A stretch of 34,483 nt of DNA from contig NZ_FXTM01000022.1 of NCBI RefSeq assembly GCF_900182585.1, positions 1 to 34,483 of the forward strand, read 5' to 3'. Below the pieces are notes generated by a model. The model was not told the origin of the DNA and searched no databases. It was given only the letters and a program-made list of their open reading frames with translations. Below are positions 1-34,483 of the stretch, piece after piece. Each line of letters starts with the position of its first letter. Position 1 is the stretch's first letter. Position numbers and translations under genes: made by a program. This DNA comes from Balnearium lithotrophicum (GTDB lineage Bacteria > Aquificota > Aquificia > Desulfurobacteriales > Desulfurobacteriaceae).

Positions 1-302
1 ATCTGAGGTTGTCTTACTCTGTGAGGTCTTTTGTTTCTGTCTTTGAGGCCTTCTAAACCGTACTTTTTGTATCTAATTTTCCATTTGTAGAAGGTAGTTG
101 GACTTATTCCGAAGTATCTGCAGGTTAGTCTTGCATTTTGGTGTTTTTCGTAATGTTGAATCCATTTAAGTCTTTTTCTCACGTTTGGGTCTTTTGTTAG
201 GTCGAGTTTGGTTTTTATTTTCGTTCCTCTTTTGATTGTTTTTTTGAAGGGTGTATTTGATATGTGCAGGGATGCACCTTTGAATTTCTTTAATTGTTTC
301 AT
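1..302 (-). CDS. IS481-like transposase, N-terminal part (truncated by window edge)
   Basis: Read leftward from the ATG at 300-302, an open frame of about 100 codons reaches the window edge without a stop. It begins MKQLKKFKGASLHIS and contains a helix-turn-helix: LTCRYFGISPTTFYKWK, then KYGLEGLKDRNKRPHRV. This is the typical DNA-binding front end of IS481/IS3-group transposases with a downstream rve (DDE) domain. A good Shine-Dalgarno, GGAGG (complement of 312-316), sits 9 nt upstream of the ATG. The catalytic domain of this copy is outside the window; the copy at the right edge shows the matching C-terminal half. Family assignment rests on this HTH plus the right-hand rve fragment, so IS481 versus a related rve family is not settled. 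Confidence 0.75.
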   Translation of the reverse strand, partial: MKQLKKFKGASLHISNTPFKKTIKRGTKIKTKLDLTKDPNVRKRLKWIQHYEKHQNARLTCRYFGISPTTFYKWKIRYKKYGLEGLKDRNKRPHRVRQPQ

Positions 303-354
303 TGGTGGACACCTCCTTTTGTTGGAGTTCAAATCTTATTTTAGGGTGTCCACC
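300..354 (-). promoter_or_regulatory. Hairpin formed by IS terminal repeat and transposase RBS region
   Basis: On the minus strand the IS end GGTGGACACC (complement of 345-354) is exactly complementary to GGTGTCCACC (complement of 304-313), 31 nt further in. The inner arm overlaps the last bases of the Shine-Dalgarno GGAGG (312-316) and ends one base before the ATG. RNA entering from outside the IS would contain both arms and could fold, hiding the ribosome binding site. Transcripts starting inside the IS would lack the outer arm. The same logic is known for IS10 and IS50; here it is inferred from the sequence. Confidence 0.5.
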
Positions 355-5473: not shown

Positions 5474-8400
5474 ATGAAAAGGAGGAGGTGGAAAGCGGCT
5501 TTATCTACGGGAACTCTCTTCCTATTAGGAGTTTCTGCTCAAGCCTTAGGTCACCCGGCAGTTCCTCTAAGAGACATCAATGGAAAGCCAATTTCTGAAA
5601 CCCTTAACCCTTCAGACACCATAACAATAGGAAACTCAACTTACATTGCCGGAAATCCTGTAAGTTGGGAAGTCACATGTGGTTCATGCCACAAGGAAGT
5701 TACGGGAGATGTAAAAGGAGGACTTCACTCCCCCGGTCCAATACATGCGACCTACCACATAGGTAGGGGTTGGGATGAGTTAAGTGATGACTTTGGTTAT
5801 GAGAGAGTAAAAGCCGGAAAGGACTGGAGGAAATTTTTACGCTCCTTCGGTGATGATGGAGCCTGGTGACCACCTTCGTACCGCCAGTTGGCGGCAAAGC
5901 ACCCTTCAAAGGACCCCGGGCTTTCTCCAGATATTAACAATGGAGTCGATTACAGAGGAAATGTTAAGTACGACATGGATATGGGAACTCCCGATAAGGT
6001 ATTCACATGTGCATCCTGCCACTCCGGTGGAATTATGGCCTTTGATAGGGACAGCGGAAAGCGCCACGACGAAGTTGAAACCTGGGACAACCAGACCGAT
6101 GGAACAGGATTTTTCTCAAATGCTACCTACTCAGACAGTGAAGTTGACGGAGACTACTTCTCCTATACCGCAGATGAAGAATCAAGGGGATACATCGGAA
6201 TGCCCCACAAGTTCAACTGGAAAAAGTCGGGAGTTTTAGATACAGACTGTCTCCTCTGCCACTCAGACCGTTCCTTAGCTGAAAAAGAAAAGCTTGTAGT
6301 TACTACTTCAAACGGTTGGAATGCTTCAAATCCAACCCCTGCAAACCCAAGGGTTTTTGTCTTTGTTAAGAAGGACAATAACGGAAAGGTTGTTGAGGTT
6401 TCTTTAGGATTTCCTCCACAACTAACACAGGATGAAATTAACAACGGATACACAATCGATTCAGCAGCTTTCTATTCCGACCCTCTTGAGAGATTGGTAA
6501 GTGTTTACTATTCAGACGTTATTCAAGGAGTTATAAAGGATGAGTTAAAACAGTCTGGAATAGACCCAGCAACTCTGAACCAGCAGCAGATGATGACTAT
6601 TCAGAGCTTCACAATAGGTACTATCTCAGGTTATCTGAAACATGGAACGACTACAGGATTTACAATCCCATACTCACAGCTTGGTCAAAAGATAGGTGTT
6701 GACCTTCAGGATTACAACTATGACGATTCTAAATTTAACAATAGACTCTCCGGTTTCTTTGGCCAGTTCTACCTTGATATCGGAGCTCCAAACTTCTCAG
6801 CCCGTGACTACCTGAGAAACGCATTTTTCGAGTCAACAGTTGAGGGTCAGCCTTACGTCGGTTCAGGATTTGTGGTTAGAGCTGCAAATGCAACGAGCAA
6901 TTACTCTTACAAACCGAACGACCCAAACGTTCCGTTTGTAAACCTTGCAAGGGCAGGCCACTTCTTTGGATGGGCAGCAACGGGAACATTAATGTCGATA
7001 GCAGACCCTAACAATCCATCAAAACCTATTGCCTTTGTAAGACTTGAAAAACAACAGGACGGAACGTTCAAGGCTGTAGCTTACTACAAGAATGACGTTG
7101 ACCTTGACAACGTTCAACTGCCCATTCTTGAAACAAGTAACCACTATACTCTAATAAAGGCAGACTCAAGCAGTAAGGATGGTGTATCAGTTTCTCATAC
7201 AGGAGATAAAGATAAAGACCTTTCATTAATGTGTGCCCAGTGCCACTTTGCCATTCCGGACACAGAAAACAAGTGGACTGTAGATGGACAACACTTCTTC
7301 CCCAACTGGTACGTAAGGAGGGGAATCATTGGACTTGGAGCTGACGTTGTTAAGAGAGCTGCGGTCTATGCACCGGATGAGAAACAGAACGACCAATCCG
7401 TTGCCCCGATAGCCATTACTCCAGATGGAGAAATGGCAAAGTACAGCAGTATGAACGATACTATGAACTACTCCGACGGTCTTCCTGTAGGTTACGACGT
7501 TCACATGGCAAAGGATGGTGGGAATTTGTCGTGTCTATCCTGTCACGGACAGGACAATCTTCCCAAAGATGTTAAGGAACACCACAATCCTCACAACTTC
7601 CTGAAAGGTAATGACTCTGCCGGTGAAGTTATGCCTGCACTCGACTACAATCCTTCAGTTAGAACCTGTTCAAGTTGTCACTGGGGAACAGATGACGGCG
7701 CAGCAAAGGCACATGAAGCTTGGTTTGGGCCTGCAGCATCAGCCCACATCAACAAAATTCAGTGTCAGGTATGCCACATACCGTTTAAGACCTACTGGAC
7801 GTTCAGATTCTTCGATGATTCACTTGGATACTCCAACCAGTTTGACGATAGATTAATGAAAATGGATAACGGAACTGTTTATCAGTTTCCTCCAGAGTGG
7901 GCAATTCCTGCCTTTGGACCGACTCCAACCTACGGACTGAACTTCTCTTACGTCATTGCCCAAACGGACGATAACGGAACTGACAAGCTACTTCCAATAA
8001 CGTCAATTGATATGGACCCTTACAGAGCTCTCATGAGGGTCAACAATTCAAACTTTGGACTCTGGAACATTCCTTCGGAAAACTTTCCATGGAGATGGGA
8101 ACCTGCAATTATCAAACGTTGGACTATAAACGATAAGGGAGAGCCTGTCTTAAGGGCAGGTCTAATCAGTCCGATTCAAGTATTTACATGGATTGATGCA
8201 GCAACAGGAAGGGCCCTCTTTGTTCGTGAGATGAACATGGCAATTGATGGAGTTGCCTACGATTCAAATGGAACTCCAGTTGGAAAATCAACCATAGACC
8301 CAGAACTTCCCGAAAAGAGCGTTCCAGGGTTGACGATTGATCCAAAAACTGGAAAAGTTGCATTTAAGATTCACTGGGTAGACGGCAATCCTGGTGGATA

Positions 8401-9454
8401 TGTTGACTATATTGACGATGATGACGGAGATATGGTTCCAGAAATCAGCACAAACGAGGAGTACGAAGCCCTAAAAGCTGCCATTAAACAGGTTCTTGAT
8501 AAGGAAGATCCAGGACATCCTCATAATCCTGTAATCATGACGTTTATGGCACCATTTGGCATTGACCACGGAGTTCTACCTGCTGAGTATGCCCTTGGAG
8601 CTCAGAAGACTGGTCCTCTTTCCTGTAACGCTTGTCACAACTCAGATGAGAGTAAGAACAGGTTGAGTCCGGCGGTCTGGGAAGGGGATGAAAGTGCAGG
8701 AAGGAAGGTAACTCTCACGTTCCACGCCCTACCAGATGAGGCCGTCAGCGAGTCTAAGGCAACGGGAATGTGGATGTTACCGGAGGGAACTAAGTCTGAG
8801 AACGGTAGGTACGTGATTACTCAGGGAGCTCTCTGCAGAGTAACGTCCGTTGGAGTCGAAAGTAAGGAATTTTCTGCTTTCTACTTAGTTACTCCTGATG
8901 GTACTGTAACAGGACCTGTCTCAGATGAAGTAAAAATTTCTGTAGACAAAGGAGCAGTGGATGTTCCAACTTCTGTTAAAGTCGAAAAGGTTGAGAATGC
9001 AAACATTGAGGAATCTGCAGTTGAAGCTGCAAAATCGTACGGAATAGATACTCCCGTTCTTGCAACTGAAGTCTTGGATATTCATACGAAAACAAACAAA
9101 TTTAATTCACCTGTAACATTTACAATTAAGTACGACCCATCCAAGGTGGCAAACAAGGTATTAATTCTTGCAAGTGAGGACGGTAAAAACTGGACAAAAG
9201 TTACAGAATTTGGCGTTGACCCGAACAATCCTTACGTAACGTTTGCAAGGAGCCAGCTCAGCTACTTTGCAGTTGTAGGTGAAGCTCCTTCATCAATTCC
9301 TTCAGGAACAGCACAAACTACAACCGGAGGTGGTAGTGGAGGTGGTTGTTCAATTTCTCCTGCTGTAGAGCCAGTTTCTGGAGGAGTTAGCCTTCTAACG
9401 ATGCTTTCAGGTCTAATAGGGCTTCTCCTTGGAAGGAAAAAAAGGAAAAACTAA
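5474..9454 (+). CDS. Octahaem c-type cytochrome with in-frame UGA (probable selenoprotein)
   Basis: Read through the UGA at 5867-5869 as selenocysteine (residue 132), this is one frame of 1326 residues. A Sec signal peptide (MKRRRWKAALSTG..., cleavage near AQALG) leads to eight CXXCH haem sites: CGSCH ~69, CASCH ~179, CLLCH ~259, CAQCH ~587, CLSCH ~686, CSSCH ~732, CQVCH ~764, CNACH ~1050. A beta-rich domain follows (about 1130-1260), then a Gly-rich linker, GCSISP, a hydrophobic segment and RKKRKN, resembling a surface-sorting tail. The UGA context is GAW-U-PPSYRQLAAK, shared with the paralogue at 25099. A separate start at TTG 5888 is unlikely: it lies inside the hairpin, has no ribosome binding site and would yield a cytochrome without signal peptide. 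It is probably monocistronic, ending at a strong terminator. Extracellular electron transfer or reductase role is inferred; substrate unknown. Confidence 0.9.
5867..5899 (+). promoter_or_regulatory. Candidate bacterial SECIS element and Sec UGA codon (cytochrome 1)
   Basis: The UGA (5867-5869) is followed by a hairpin: CCGCC (5881-5885), loop AGUU (5886-5889), GGCGG (5890-5894). The apical loop begins 16 nt after the UGA and has a G in its first two bases, matching the general rules described for bacterial SECIS (spacing about 16-37 nt, short stem, early G). CUU (5874-5876) can pair with AAG (5897-5899) to extend the lower stem across a small internal loop. It recurs with one base changed, outside the upper stem, in the second cytochrome. 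Confidence 0.82.
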
Positions 9455-25098: not shown

Positions 25099-28000
25099 AT
25101 GGGAAGGAAGTGGAAGAGGAGCAGTCTAAAAGTAACAACAGGCCTCATACTATCAACAGTGCTGGCATCCCAAGGGTTTGCACAGCACCCGTCGGTTAAA
25201 CTCTTAGACCTTGACGGAAACTCCGTTAAAAGTTCCCTCAATGCAACAGATACCGTGACCCTTGTCTCAAACAACGGAACAGAAGTTACTCTGGAAAGAG
25301 GAAACCCTGTAAGTTTTGAAAAGACATGTGGACAGTGTCACGAGAACATTATTGAAGACGTTAGAGCATCCCACCATGGCGCAGTTGGCCTTCACGACAT
25401 GGGATGGATTGATAACAGAGAAACGTTCGGGGACGATACAGGAAGTAAGGACTTTGTTACAAACGTTGTTCTGAAAATGAGGTACTTCCGCTCAAAGTCC
25501 CACTACGGCGGCTGGTGACCACCTTCATACCGCCAGTTGGCGGCAAAGAAACCTTTAAACGACCCTGCAGTTCCAGATGGGGCCGTTGACGGAATCAACC
25601 CTGCAGACCAGAATGCCTACAAGGGTTTCAACTTTGATATGGGCACTGCAAACCACAACATAACCTGTAACTCCTGTCACGCAGGTGGTGGTGCAGCCCA
25701 GTTTGGAAGGGAAAACAAACCCTTAGATGAAGTGTTAAAGGAGAAGTTAGGAGAGGATAAGTTCAACGATTTGGAGAACAAGGACTGGTTTATAGATATC
25801 GACAACGACACTGACTACAACATTCCTATTGATGGAGACCTCTTTGCCTATTCTGACTACGAGGTCGGTGGAGGTTACATAGGGAAACCCCACCTATTTA
25901 ACTTCAAGCGTTCTGGTGTAAACGATACAGACTGTCTCATGTGTCACGCCGATGCAACTCAAAGAGCCAAAACTGTAAAGACGGAAATAAACAATACAAC
26001 TCTTTCTCCCATAATGCCTGCGAATCCAAGGGTTATGGTGTTTAAAGGGATGACATCTGATAATGAGACAATAGTCATTTCATTAGGTGTTCCTCCAAAA
26101 GTTGGAGAGACGATAAACGGAAAAACTGTTGCAAAGGTTGATTCTGCTTACTACAACTCTGTTCCTATAACTGTTCTTAAATCCCTCTACGGATTGTCCG
26201 ATGATGATATATCCAACATCGAATCAAACAATGGAACGTGGTCAAGATTTTTCATCTATCCAAACAATGCAAACGGAGCAACGAGGGAAGTTGCAAGGGT
26301 TACCTACTTTGAACATCCCAAGAGCACAAAGGATAAGGACGGTGGGGATGTTTACGTTAACGGCGGAGCTGTAACCTTTAAGGACGATAATGGAGATACC
26401 GTTTACAGGACGTTTGCTGGATTCTTCTTTAAGTACATATCAACAGCCTCTCTAATGGGAGTAGATACAGACCAGGATGGAGTTCCTCTTGCCTACGTCA
26501 GGTTTGTTAAGGAAAACGGCATCTGGAAACCTGAAGTTTACTACGACGTTAAAGAGTTTAACGATAAAGGAGAGGTGGACCTTCCAATCTTAGAGAACAG
26601 AGTTGGTGATAAGAACACACCAGCTACAGAGGTTTCTCCTAAGGATTACAACTATTCAGTTCCTACGGCTTTAGGAAATGCCGATAATCCTTATCCTCAA
26701 ATGACAACTCCTGCCGAAGGGAGTGATAAGAATAGAGCCTGGGGATACGTATGTTCTTACTGTCACATGGCAATTCCCTACGAGGATGGAAAGCTTCCAG
26801 ATGGAAACTCAACATACGCCTGGGTAACGAGGAAGGGAACTCTCGGACTTGGAGCTGAAATCGTTAAAAGGGGAGACGTCTTCTCCTACGATTTACACAG
26901 AGGTGGAGAGGAGAAAGGAAACTTACCAGCAGATGCATTCAAGAACGTAGACCTTTCAAACAGTACTCAAGCCCAGCAGGCTTTCCACAGAATGTTAACT
27001 GCAAAGTCCGTTCAATCGATTGATGATATCCCAATAGGTTACGACGTTCACTTTGACAGTGAAAAGGGAGGAATGACCTGTCTCTCTTGTCACGGTGAGG
27101 GAACACTCTCTCAGGAGGAGAAAGAGTACCATCCTATACACCACGACTTTTTAAAGGGTAACGACTGGGGAGGTCACTGGGACCAGTCCTTAGACTACAA
27201 CCCTTCACTTAAAACGTGTTTAGACTGTCACTTTGGAGGTTCAAGGCAGCTTGCTGCCCAAGTTCATAGCGATGCATTTGGACCAGAAGGAAACGCTGCA
27301 ATCCACATGGAGAAGGTCTCCTGTGAAGTCTGCCACATTCCATTTAAAACCCACTGGACATTCAGAACGTTCTACGACGTCCTTGGATACTCCTACAACT
27401 TTGACAACAGAATTCTTGGATACAATCTAAACAACGGTACAACTGTACCTCTTCCTGAAAGTATGTTTACTCCAGGATTTGGTCCATTTATGCCAATTGC
27501 AGGGTACGGAGCTCCCCAACCTTTCTGTATTGTGAGAACGGACAACGGTAAAGATACTCTTGTTCCAATATATCAGGCTGACTTTGACCCAAGGCAGGCA
27601 GCCCTAAGGCTTGAGAAGAAAGAATTTGGAATTTGGAACGTTCCAGACATTTCATTCCCATGGGCCTGGGCTCCAGTAATAATCAACAACGGATTTAGAC
27701 CTGACGTTCCAGGTGGACAGAAGTTCATGTACAGAATAGCAGACCCCCTAACACTTGTAACCTGGTACGACAAATCAACTGGAAAAGTTCTGTACACAAG
27801 GGAAATGGCAGCTGCACTTGATGGAACTGAATATTCAGAACACGCAAAGAAAAACGTTCCGGCCTACTTTATACACGATGGAAAGGTATGTGTTAAAACA
27901 ATCTTAGGTGACTACATATGTGACGACAACGGCGATTACCTACCTGAAATAGATACAGACGAAGAGTACGAAGCAATGAAGTCTGCCCTTACAGATGTTC

Positions 28001-29601
28001 TAAAGAGAGAGGGGGTTAAAAATCCTGACCCTGTCTTCTACATCTGGACTGCTCCGTTCAGCATAGACCACGGTGTCCTTCCAAAGGATTATGCCCTTGG
28101 TGCAGGAAAAACCGTTAATGGAGAGGAGCTCAACTGTTCTGCCTGCCACGATGCTAAAAATGGAAGGCTTCCTCAGGCAAACATGGCAGACATTGAGGGA
28201 AGCTCAACACTCAAAGAGCTGATAGTTAAAGACAGTAAAGGAAACGTTAAGTTCTTCGGTCTTGGAAGGGAGATTGTTACAGTTCCAACCAAGATTCCGC
28301 CTACGGCTTACAAGGAAGCAGTTAGGGTATTCTTCAACTCCCCTGAGGATGAGAACGGCAATCCTAAGTATGGAACAATGAAGATTAAGGTTGCTGGAAC
28401 TGAAAAGGACATTGATGTCATGTACACAACGGCTGGAGATATCTTAGTTAATGCCCTTACAAACGGAGTTGATATAGACAGGCACCTTGTTCCGATTCCT
28501 GTAGAGAGCTCCGGAATAGATGGAGCTGCATTTGCCCTTCCTGATAAGAAGTCAACCTGGAAGATGAGAATCGAAGGAGTTGAGACGGAAGTTGAAACAG
28601 AAGCTCTCGAAAATGACGAGATGCCAAGAAGGGCAATCGTTGTTAGAATGAAGAACGAAATGCCGGAGCTCTTAGGCTTTGAGCACCTTGCAGAAGAGAT
28701 AATGTCTGCCGGAGAAGGGAACTACGTAGCGGTATTCACACCTATAATTCCTTCAGAGTACATAGAAAAAATGACGTTTAATCTTGCCAACTTAAAGGTT
28801 GCTGACCCTGAGAACCTCTCAATCAACTATGCAAAAATTCACAAAGTAAGAGTATCTGAAGAAAGTAACGTTCACTACGAAGTTGACAAGGAGAACTTTA
28901 AGCCAGAGTCAATTTCCGTTAAGGAAGCAATCAGCAGGGGATGGGCTTACTACGACCCATCTACCGGAGAGTTGGTAGTAAACGTTAAAGCTATGAGTGA
29001 GGAAGTTCCCGGAGAGGGAGAGCTTGCATTTTCCGTTATGAGAAAGGTTGGAAGTGAAGTTATCCTTCCAGAAGAAGTTCAAACCAATAACGGTCAGATT
29101 GTTGCTAAGGTCGAAGGAAAAGAGGTTACAGTCAGTGTAGCAGATGCAGCAATAGACGAAGTTCTCAGACCTGTAGACCTTCTAAAATTTGCCCAAGAAC
29201 TGAGACTTAAAAAGGTGGTCGTTGGTTTTAAGGTTACAGATGAGGACAACAACTTCTCTATTGAGATTGACCCGAACGGCGCTATTGACTCAAACAGGGC
29301 TGTTGCCTACATCATCGTTAACGGAGAAAAGCATAAATGTAAACCAACTGTTGAAAGCAACGGTAAACTCAAGGTTACCTATCCATGTACAAGGTCTGAA
29401 ACAAGGGCTACCGAACCGATTGAAGTTGTAGTTGGTGAGGAGAGCTCCACGCCGACGGTCTCCGGTGGAATCAGCGGAGGAGGCGGTGGAGGTGGTTGTT
29501 CCATTTCTCCTTCAACAACTGCCTCAAGTGGACTGTTTAACTTAGGACTTCTCCTATCCGGACTTTTAGGGTTCTTCGGGTTTAGAAGAAAGAAGCACTA
29601 A
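25099..29601 (+). CDS. Octahaem c-type cytochrome with in-frame UGA (probable selenoprotein), second copy
   Basis: With the UGA at 25516-25518 read as selenocysteine (residue 140) this is a single frame of 1500 residues. It has a signal peptide (MGRKWKRSSLKVTTG..., cleavage near GFAQ) and eight CXXCH sites: CGQCH ~76, CNSCH ~190, CLMCH ~278, CSYCH ~552, CLSCH ~661, CLDCH ~707, CEVCH ~742, CSACH ~1012. Blocks shared with the 5474 paralogue include CHIPFKTxWTFR, DxLGYSxxFDxR and IDHGVLPxxYALGA. The long region after haem 8 (about 1020-1440) is different from the paralogue and beta-rich. The C-terminus is a Gly run, CSISPS, a hydrophobic helix and FRRKKH, a likely surface-sorting tail. Context at the Sec is GGW-U-PPSYRQLAAK. 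The gene looks monocistronic, between a hairpin and a strong terminator. Substrate unknown; extracellular electron transfer is inferred. Confidence 0.9.
25516..25548 (+). promoter_or_regulatory. Candidate bacterial SECIS element and Sec UGA codon (cytochrome 2)
   Basis: UGA 25516-25518 is followed by CCGCC (25530-25534), loop AGUU (25535-25538) and GGCGG (25539-25543). Spacing from UGA to loop is again 16 nt. From the TGG before the UGA to the AAG after the hairpin, 36 nt match the first cytochrome with one synonymous change (Ser TCG to TCA). The Arg in the stem is CGC, where neighbours mostly use AGG or AGA. Confidence 0.82.
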
Positions 29602-34195: not shown

Positions 34196-34483
34196 CTAAC
34201 CGCCGAGATTAAATTTAGTGCACCCCACAATCCAAGGCAAATGGATGTTCTCGTTCAATACATGGTGGACACCCTGGAGTTTTTTAATATATTCCTCAAA
34301 CTTCTCTACTGGAGTCTTATAACCAAGACCTTGATGAGGCCTAACGAAGTTGTAAAAGTTTAGATACCTAAATAACTTCCTGTTCATCTCATCAACTGTC
34401 GGCTCAGTCCCTTCTATCATCCACAGTTCCTTCTCCACCGTCTGTATGAACCTTTCAACATGTGCATTGGTCTTGGGAGACCT
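34196..34483 (-). CDS. IS481-like transposase, C-terminal part (truncated by window edge)
   Basis: The frame enters from the right edge and reads RSPKTNAHVERFIQTVEKEL, then FYNFVRPHQGLGYKTPVEKFEEYI. This is the end of an integrase-core (rve, DDE) domain, with the catalytic Glu in HVERF and the typical N-x-x-RPHQGLGYKTP tail of IS481/IS3-type transposases. The IS terminal repeat GGTGGACACCCT (34264-34275) falls inside the frame, so the last 20-odd residues up to the TAG at 34196-34198 are coded by flanking DNA. The natural stop may be provided by the insertion site. The 5' part lies outside the window. Confidence 0.8.
   Translation of the reverse strand, partial: RSPKTNAHVERFIQTVEKELWMIEGTEPTVDEMNRKLFRYLNFYNFVRPHQGLGYKTPVEKFEEYIKKLQGVHHVLNENIHLPWIVGCTKFNLGG
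34264..34483 (-). mobile_element. IS481-like insertion sequence, transposase-end side (partial)
   Basis: The element's end is marked by GGTGGACACCCT at 34264-34275, the inverted form of the 12-bp repeat at 343-354. Both copies have the same orientation. Only about 220 bp of this copy is inside the window. The two ends may be from one IS type inserted at two sites; identity of the missing middle cannot be checked here. Confidence 0.72.

Follow-up and report, generated by a model that had tools for sequence, protein, structure and literature searches.

Probable selenocysteine codons in two octahaem cytochrome genes

We analysed a 34,483-nucleotide contig of the heat-loving vent bacterium Balnearium lithotrophicum (NZ_FXTM01000022.1, assembly GCF_900182585.1; hereafter the window) that carries two paralogous genes for octahaem c-type cytochromes, gene A and gene B, each crossed by a single in-frame UGA that is very probably read as selenocysteine (Sec). 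The genome is 1.73 Mb in size and 99.9% complete and stands near Thermovibrio and other Desulfurobacteriaceae in the phylum Aquificota. Gene A lies on the forward strand at 5474-9454 behind a good Shine-Dalgarno sequence (GGAGGAAGAG-ATG). As an initial annotation of this DNA had pointed out, the frame is interrupted solely by the UGA at 5867-5869; with this codon taken as Sec132 it encodes 1326 residues. The putatively secreted protein has eight CxxCH motifs, at residues 69, 179, 259, 587, 687, 732, 764 and 1051, and Sec132 falls in sequence between haem 1 (CGSCH, residues 69-73, positions 5678-5692) and haem 2 (CASCH, residues 179-183, positions 6008-6022). Gene B (25099-29601, forward strand), which was absent from the initial annotation, has the same UGA and hairpin and encodes 1500 residues with its UGA at 25516-25518 as Sec140, within GGW-U-PPSYRQLAAK as in the setting of gene A. 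With eight CxxCH motifs in each, both proteins belong to the multihaem c-type cytochromes, and their N-termini, judged by eye, are basic and hydrophobic.

A whole-genome pattern search turned up gene C, which encodes the genome's third octahaem cytochrome with Sec (contig 35, L077, 304-2754); it has eight haems and its site reads KL-U-PPAYRQLAP. The pattern CCAACTGG...TCA is noisy by itself, giving 19 matches in the genome against 8 for a reversed-pattern control, and only three of the 19 show the TACCGCC stem context. The segment next to Sec is invariant among the three genes as P-x-x-Y-R-Q-L-A, and the family motif can be written W-U-PPSYRQLA. The C-termini of these proteins and of group D, a Sec-less paralogue in Desulfurobacteriaceae with Ser at the Sec site, consist of Gly5-7-Cys-Ser, about 20 hydrophobic residues and RRKK (9332-9451 in gene A and 29484-29598 in gene B, forward strand). 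These tails scored below the cut-offs of the GlyGly-CTERM, MYXO-CTERM and JDVT-CTERM models. They resemble a surface-sorting tag, and the octahaem cytochromes are probably secreted and anchored at the cell surface.

With a profile built from the first 310 residues, 136 Aquificota genomes were searched. The A, B and C matches in Desulfurobacteriaceae, from 17 genomes, all had exactly one in-frame TGA and no other stop (36/36), so that the UGA and its flanks are kept among orthologues as is typical of selenoproteins. The ratio of nonsynonymous to synonymous substitution rates (dN/dS) was about 0.07-0.15 where dS could be estimated and was similar before and after the UGA, indicating strong purifying selection. 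A scan of genome contigs gave matches in Thermovibrio and other Desulfurobacteriaceae only, and viral contigs and plasmids contained no match to the family. In one group D gene (L121, genome G002) a stop replaces the Trp of its relatives (HPG-stop-VDT), owing to a recent disruption or to an error in the assembly.

A hairpin under nucleotide-level selection

Both genes can form a compact hairpin, CCGCC-AGUU-GGCGG, downstream of the UGA, as expected of a Sec insertion sequence (SECIS) element. It lies on the forward strand at 5881-5894 in gene A (loop 5886-5889) and at 25530-25543 in gene B (loop 25535-25538). In gene A the stem begins 11 nt and the loop 16 nt past the UGA (5870-5885), within one base of the 12 and 16 nt given before. 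Bacterial SECIS elements have been delimited by a loop of 3-9 nt, a stem of 4-16 bp, a UGA-loop distance of 16-37 nt, a minimum free energy of at most -7.5 kcal/mol and a G at loop position 1 or 2 with G or U after it (PMC13188914). The present hairpins lie inside these limits: the loop is 4 nt long and the stem 5 bp in A and B, 4 bp in C and 7 bp in three relatives from other phyla (L144, L154 and L155), and the UGA-loop distance is 16 nt in A, B, C and L142 and 22 nt in L143, L144, L154 and L155. The loop reads AGUU in all Sec members and GGUC in the element of the genome's own selD, and the minimum free energies are -9.4 and -9.5 kcal/mol, for A not lower than those of shuffled sequences. 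Rfam has no family at the UGA and hairpin site.

When 37 genes of the A, B and C types were aligned, the amino acid was invariant at 29 degenerate columns, of which just five use one codon. The five are the adjacent hairpin codons UAC CGC CAG UUG GCG, the same in 37/37 genes; the chance of five single-codon columns landing exactly on the hairpin is 1/C(29,5), or 1 in 118,755 (about 8e-6). Codon choice is free at the Pro, Ser and Ala residues alongside, and synonymous sites are near or at saturation (dS above 1.5 or saturated). Across phyla the stem is rebuilt, as UUUCGCC/GGCGAAA in L144 and UCGAGCC/GGCUCGA in L154 and L155, with 4/7 stem pairs changed on both sides and a covariation score that was reached by 0/500 shuffles. 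In L143, L154 and L155 the protein is longer by two inserted residues between Sec and the QLA motif, and CCAGUUGG is still kept. Because of the single-codon columns and the compensatory stem changes, and not because of its folding energy, we regard the hairpin as functional and under selection at the nucleotide level, as far as sequence comparison can tell.

Selenocysteine machinery

All of the genes that a bacterial selenoprotein calls for, selA, selB, selC and selD, for which the initial annotation had proposed to search, are present in the genome of the window: tRNA-Sec scored 78.9 bits (called tRNA-SeC with anticodon tca by ARAGORN), SelB 428 bits, SelA 625 bits and SelD 368 bits. The selD gene itself has one in-frame TGA; this UGA is followed by a hairpin, CUCAGCCC-GGUC-GGGCuUGAG (L018, about 1530-1580), which makes the product a seleno-SelD. 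Among the genomes with Sec members in other phyla (G369, G305, G309 and those of L154 and L155), tRNA-Sec was above the cut-off in 5/5, and G393, whose member has Cys in place of Sec, also keeps tRNA-Sec. The genome papers on T. ammonificans and on Aquificales mention tRNA-Sec and do not mention a Sec cytochrome.

Relatives in other phyla and a cysteine homologue

A search of 391 genomes reaching beyond Aquificota returned the Sec members L142 (G369), L144 (G305) and L143 (G309), and the phylum of G309 holds two more, L154 and L155. The L142 hairpin is identical to that of gene A in stem and loop, and L144 is fused to a formate-dehydrogenase-gamma-like cytochrome b. By the kinship labels of the genomes, on which the phylum count rests, the sequences place the Sec octahaem family in at least four phyla, Aquificota and at least three more. 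We take it to be a real selenoprotein family, since it has three genes in one genome and relatives in at least three other phyla.

A homologue with Cys at the site, another check that had been proposed, was found once (n=1). L156, from genome G393 in the same phylum as G309, is 54% identical to the Sec member L144 across 625 residues; its site reads W-C-SPAPLYRQLAPKK with the codon TGC, and BLAST pairs this Cys with U132 of the gene A protein. The hairpin is missing from L156, which has CAGCTC where Sec members have CAGUUG. Judged from this alignment, L144 and L156 form the Sec/Cys pair among homologues by which selenoproteins are classically recognised. In a quick tree the Sec members did not form one clade, and the Cys member L156 was sister to the Sec member L144; members with Asn or Asp at the site formed one clade and those with Leu another. 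The branching order is unsure because of the long branches in this tree.

The Sec site and haem 2

The haem 2 motif, CxxCH-PGG, lies about 29-50 residues past Sec and is kept in every Sec or Cys member. Of the relatives without UGA, group D has Ser at the site, and others have Asn (L145, L146, L157, L159), Asp (L149, L158, L170) or Leu (L148, L151). Both haem 2 cysteines are gone in 9/9 of these Asn, Asp and Leu members, where the motif has become RH-VGGG or RH-xPGG and seven haems are left. The initial annotation had placed a selenocysteine at residue 132 close to haem 1; the comparative evidence bears out the selenocysteine and ties it to haem 2 instead. Given the clades of the tree, this association rests on about two independent losses, and we consider it suggestive, not proven.

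Some of the seven-haem relatives of the Asn/Asp type and similar partial matches (L158, L159, L161 and L163) stand directly downstream of another octahaem open reading frame (ORF), and a cytochrome-b-like ORF appears to follow L157, L158 and L159. Judged by gene order, this arrangement looks like a separate respiratory operon.

Comparison with known cytochromes

The initial annotation had cautioned that Sec multihaem cytochromes might already be described, and rightly so: Geobacter has ExtKL, predicted to be a c-type cytochrome with five haems and Sec (PMC5877670), which is also listed in PMC13188914. It resembles the putatively secreted window proteins in that it, too, is an exported multihaem c-type cytochrome with an in-frame UGA, taken as Sec, dividing its gene, and it is tied to selenite and metal respiration. 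It differs in having five haems, a mass of about 50 kDa and a place in the extHIJKLMNOPQS cluster, whereas the window family has eight haems, about 140-160 kDa, stand-alone genes and three paralogues per genome. The ExtKL model NF040886 gave no match to the window proteins up to an E value of 10. The same survey contains one GenBank-annotated Sec entry under the name TIGR04315 octahaem (WP_331457571.1; PMC13188914). TIGR04315, the tetrathionate reductase family octahaem cytochrome, shares the number of haems and matches locally over a haem cluster (profile positions about 175-255), yet the scores of 36.5, 36.1 and 49.5 bits, and of 21-43 bits for the relatives, come to about a tenth of its cut-off of 375. 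Since NF040886 does not match and TIGR04315 matches only locally, we place the window proteins outside both; by these model scores they are Sec multihaem cytochromes, a known kind of protein, of an apparently undescribed family.

A weak local Pfam match to domains II/IV of MtrC/MtrF (30.6 bits at a cut-off of 30) recalls OmcA/MtrC, which serve surface electron transfer; those cytochromes differ in having ten haems and no Sec, and TIGR03507 reached 16.3 bits against a curated cut-off of 209.3. The thiosulfate dehydrogenase/tetrathionate reductase TsdA is alike in the mechanism proposed below, in which the substrate is bound covalently by the chalcogen of a residue at a c-type haem. It differs as a dihaem protein with Cys instead of Sec and showed no homology in any search run. 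Sequence searches of the PDB returned nothing convincing.

Transposase fragments at contig ends

Transposase fragments lie at both ends of the window (3-332 and 34196-34483, reverse strand), and gene C begins right behind another at the start of contig 35. Because the fragment on contig 35 is near-identical to those at the window ends, these sequences suggest that copies of a single insertion sequence are where the assembly breaks.

Discussion

Our comparison makes it very probable that UGA 5867 and UGA 25516 are decoded as Sec by SelA, SelB, SelD and tRNA-Sec under the guidance of a compact in-frame SECIS, and that the products are putatively secreted octahaem cytochromes of a previously uncharacterised family. 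This rests on the conservation of the UGA, the selection on the hairpin, the Sec/Cys replacement, the machinery and the co-occurrence of Sec or Cys with haem 2. That the UGA could instead be a true stop or a sequencing error, leaving A and B as disrupted pseudogenes or as two genes each, appears extremely improbable. It is true that a standard-code ORF finder splits both genes in two and that TTG 5888 could start the second half of gene A. But this TTG is part of the hairpin, and a second half started there would be without a signal peptide, in line with the earlier judgement that the downstream half has no plausible start of its own; purifying selection is equal on either side of the UGA, and the Cys relative L156 reads straight through the site. 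Orthologues of A, B and C in 17 genomes share this single UGA, as do members in three other phyla, and such independent copies and orthologues dispose of sequencing error, which the initial annotation had named as a way for its reading to fail. It is hardly less improbable that the codon is read through in some other way, as near-cognate Trp or Cys or by a frame-wide reassignment. Reassignment disagrees with the use of UGA as a normal terminator, for example at the end of the B gene in L044, and non-Sec read-through with the full Sec machinery of the genome, with a UGA that recurs at a single site per gene and always together with the hairpin, and with the Cys that a hairpin-less relative has at this position.

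What selenocysteine does in these proteins is less clear-cut. Desulfurobacteriaceae grow on sulfur, which would fit a reduction of chalcogen compounds. It is possible, though somewhat short of probable, that Sec forms an active site at haem 2 or close to it, where it reacts with an oxidised chalcogen substrate and is then re-reduced via the haem chain. In this mechanism the selenolate beside haem 2 would attack an oxidised sulfur or selenium compound, with polysulfide, tetrathionate, thiosulfate or selenite as candidates, and the haem chain would supply electrons by which the selenol is reduced again. A chemical precedent is TsdA, in which a haem-ligating Cys takes up thiosulfate covalently (PMC6879331).

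Several observations weigh against our interpretation. The gene A hairpin, at -9.4 kcal/mol, has a z of -0.60 and 49/200 shuffles were as stable; energy alone proves nothing because the hairpin is unremarkable in this respect, and we dropped it as stand-alone evidence since it is no better than shuffles. Two genomes with Sec genes, G004 and G020, gave no tRNA-Sec above the cut-off among the 78 of about 157 candidates per genome that were scored; this probably reflects the partial scoring and, for G004, which is 87% complete, also incompleteness. Group D keeps haem 2 despite Ser at the site, which shows that haem 2 can do without Sec. No hint of a substrate for the Sec cytochromes comes from the gene neighbourhood, which holds prfB, cysS, alaS and other housekeeping genes, as named from their translations. 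AlphaFold2 models of A (residues 25-1075) and of mature C had a mean predicted local distance difference test score (pLDDT) of 48 and 51, too low to place Sec relative to the haems. We also rejected fold searches from these models, as matches at such pLDDT are meaningless.

The main alternative to catalysis, which we judge unlikely, is that the proteins do no more than conduct electrons to minerals or electrodes, with Sec ligating haem 2 axially or tuning its redox behaviour. The proteins are indeed multihaem and putatively secreted, their C-terminus is like a surface tag, Sec or Cys co-occurs with haem 2, and chalcogenate ligands to c-type haems exist, such as the Cys of TsdA (PMC6879331). 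On the other hand haem 2 stays in group D, where Ser has taken the place of Sec; the invariant P-P-[SA]-Y-R-Q-L-A next to Sec has the look of an active-site pocket; and eight haems over about 140 kDa make these proteins peptide-rich, a property of multihaem cytochromes that has been linked with catalysis (PMC7096707). A protective role, in which Sec would be a surface peroxidase-like or resistance site keeping outer cytochromes working in mixed vent fluids, seems improbable. Sec is common in peroxide-reducing enzymes, but neither a thioredoxin fold nor a peroxidase motif was seen, and Pfam and NCBIfam matches were to cytochrome models only.

Selenium has rarely been linked to c-type haems; ExtKL and one GenBank annotation are the cases given in a survey of prokaryotic selenoproteins from 2026 (PMC13188914). 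Returning to a catalytic Sec, one may speculate, with considerable doubt, that these cytochromes are a new class of selenium-dependent multihaem oxidoreductase present in at least four phyla: selenocysteinate would be a ligand of haem 2 or service it directly, and the resulting natural, extracellular selenolate-haem site would reduce sulfur or selenium compounds. Since gain or loss of Sec or Cys goes along with that of haem 2, the family yields a prediction of its active-site location, and because both Sec and Cys forms exist the value of Sec is open to testing by exchange. Standard annotation cuts each gene in two and such proteins would be missed, even where up to three paralogues are found in one small genome of deep-sea-vent chemolithotrophs.
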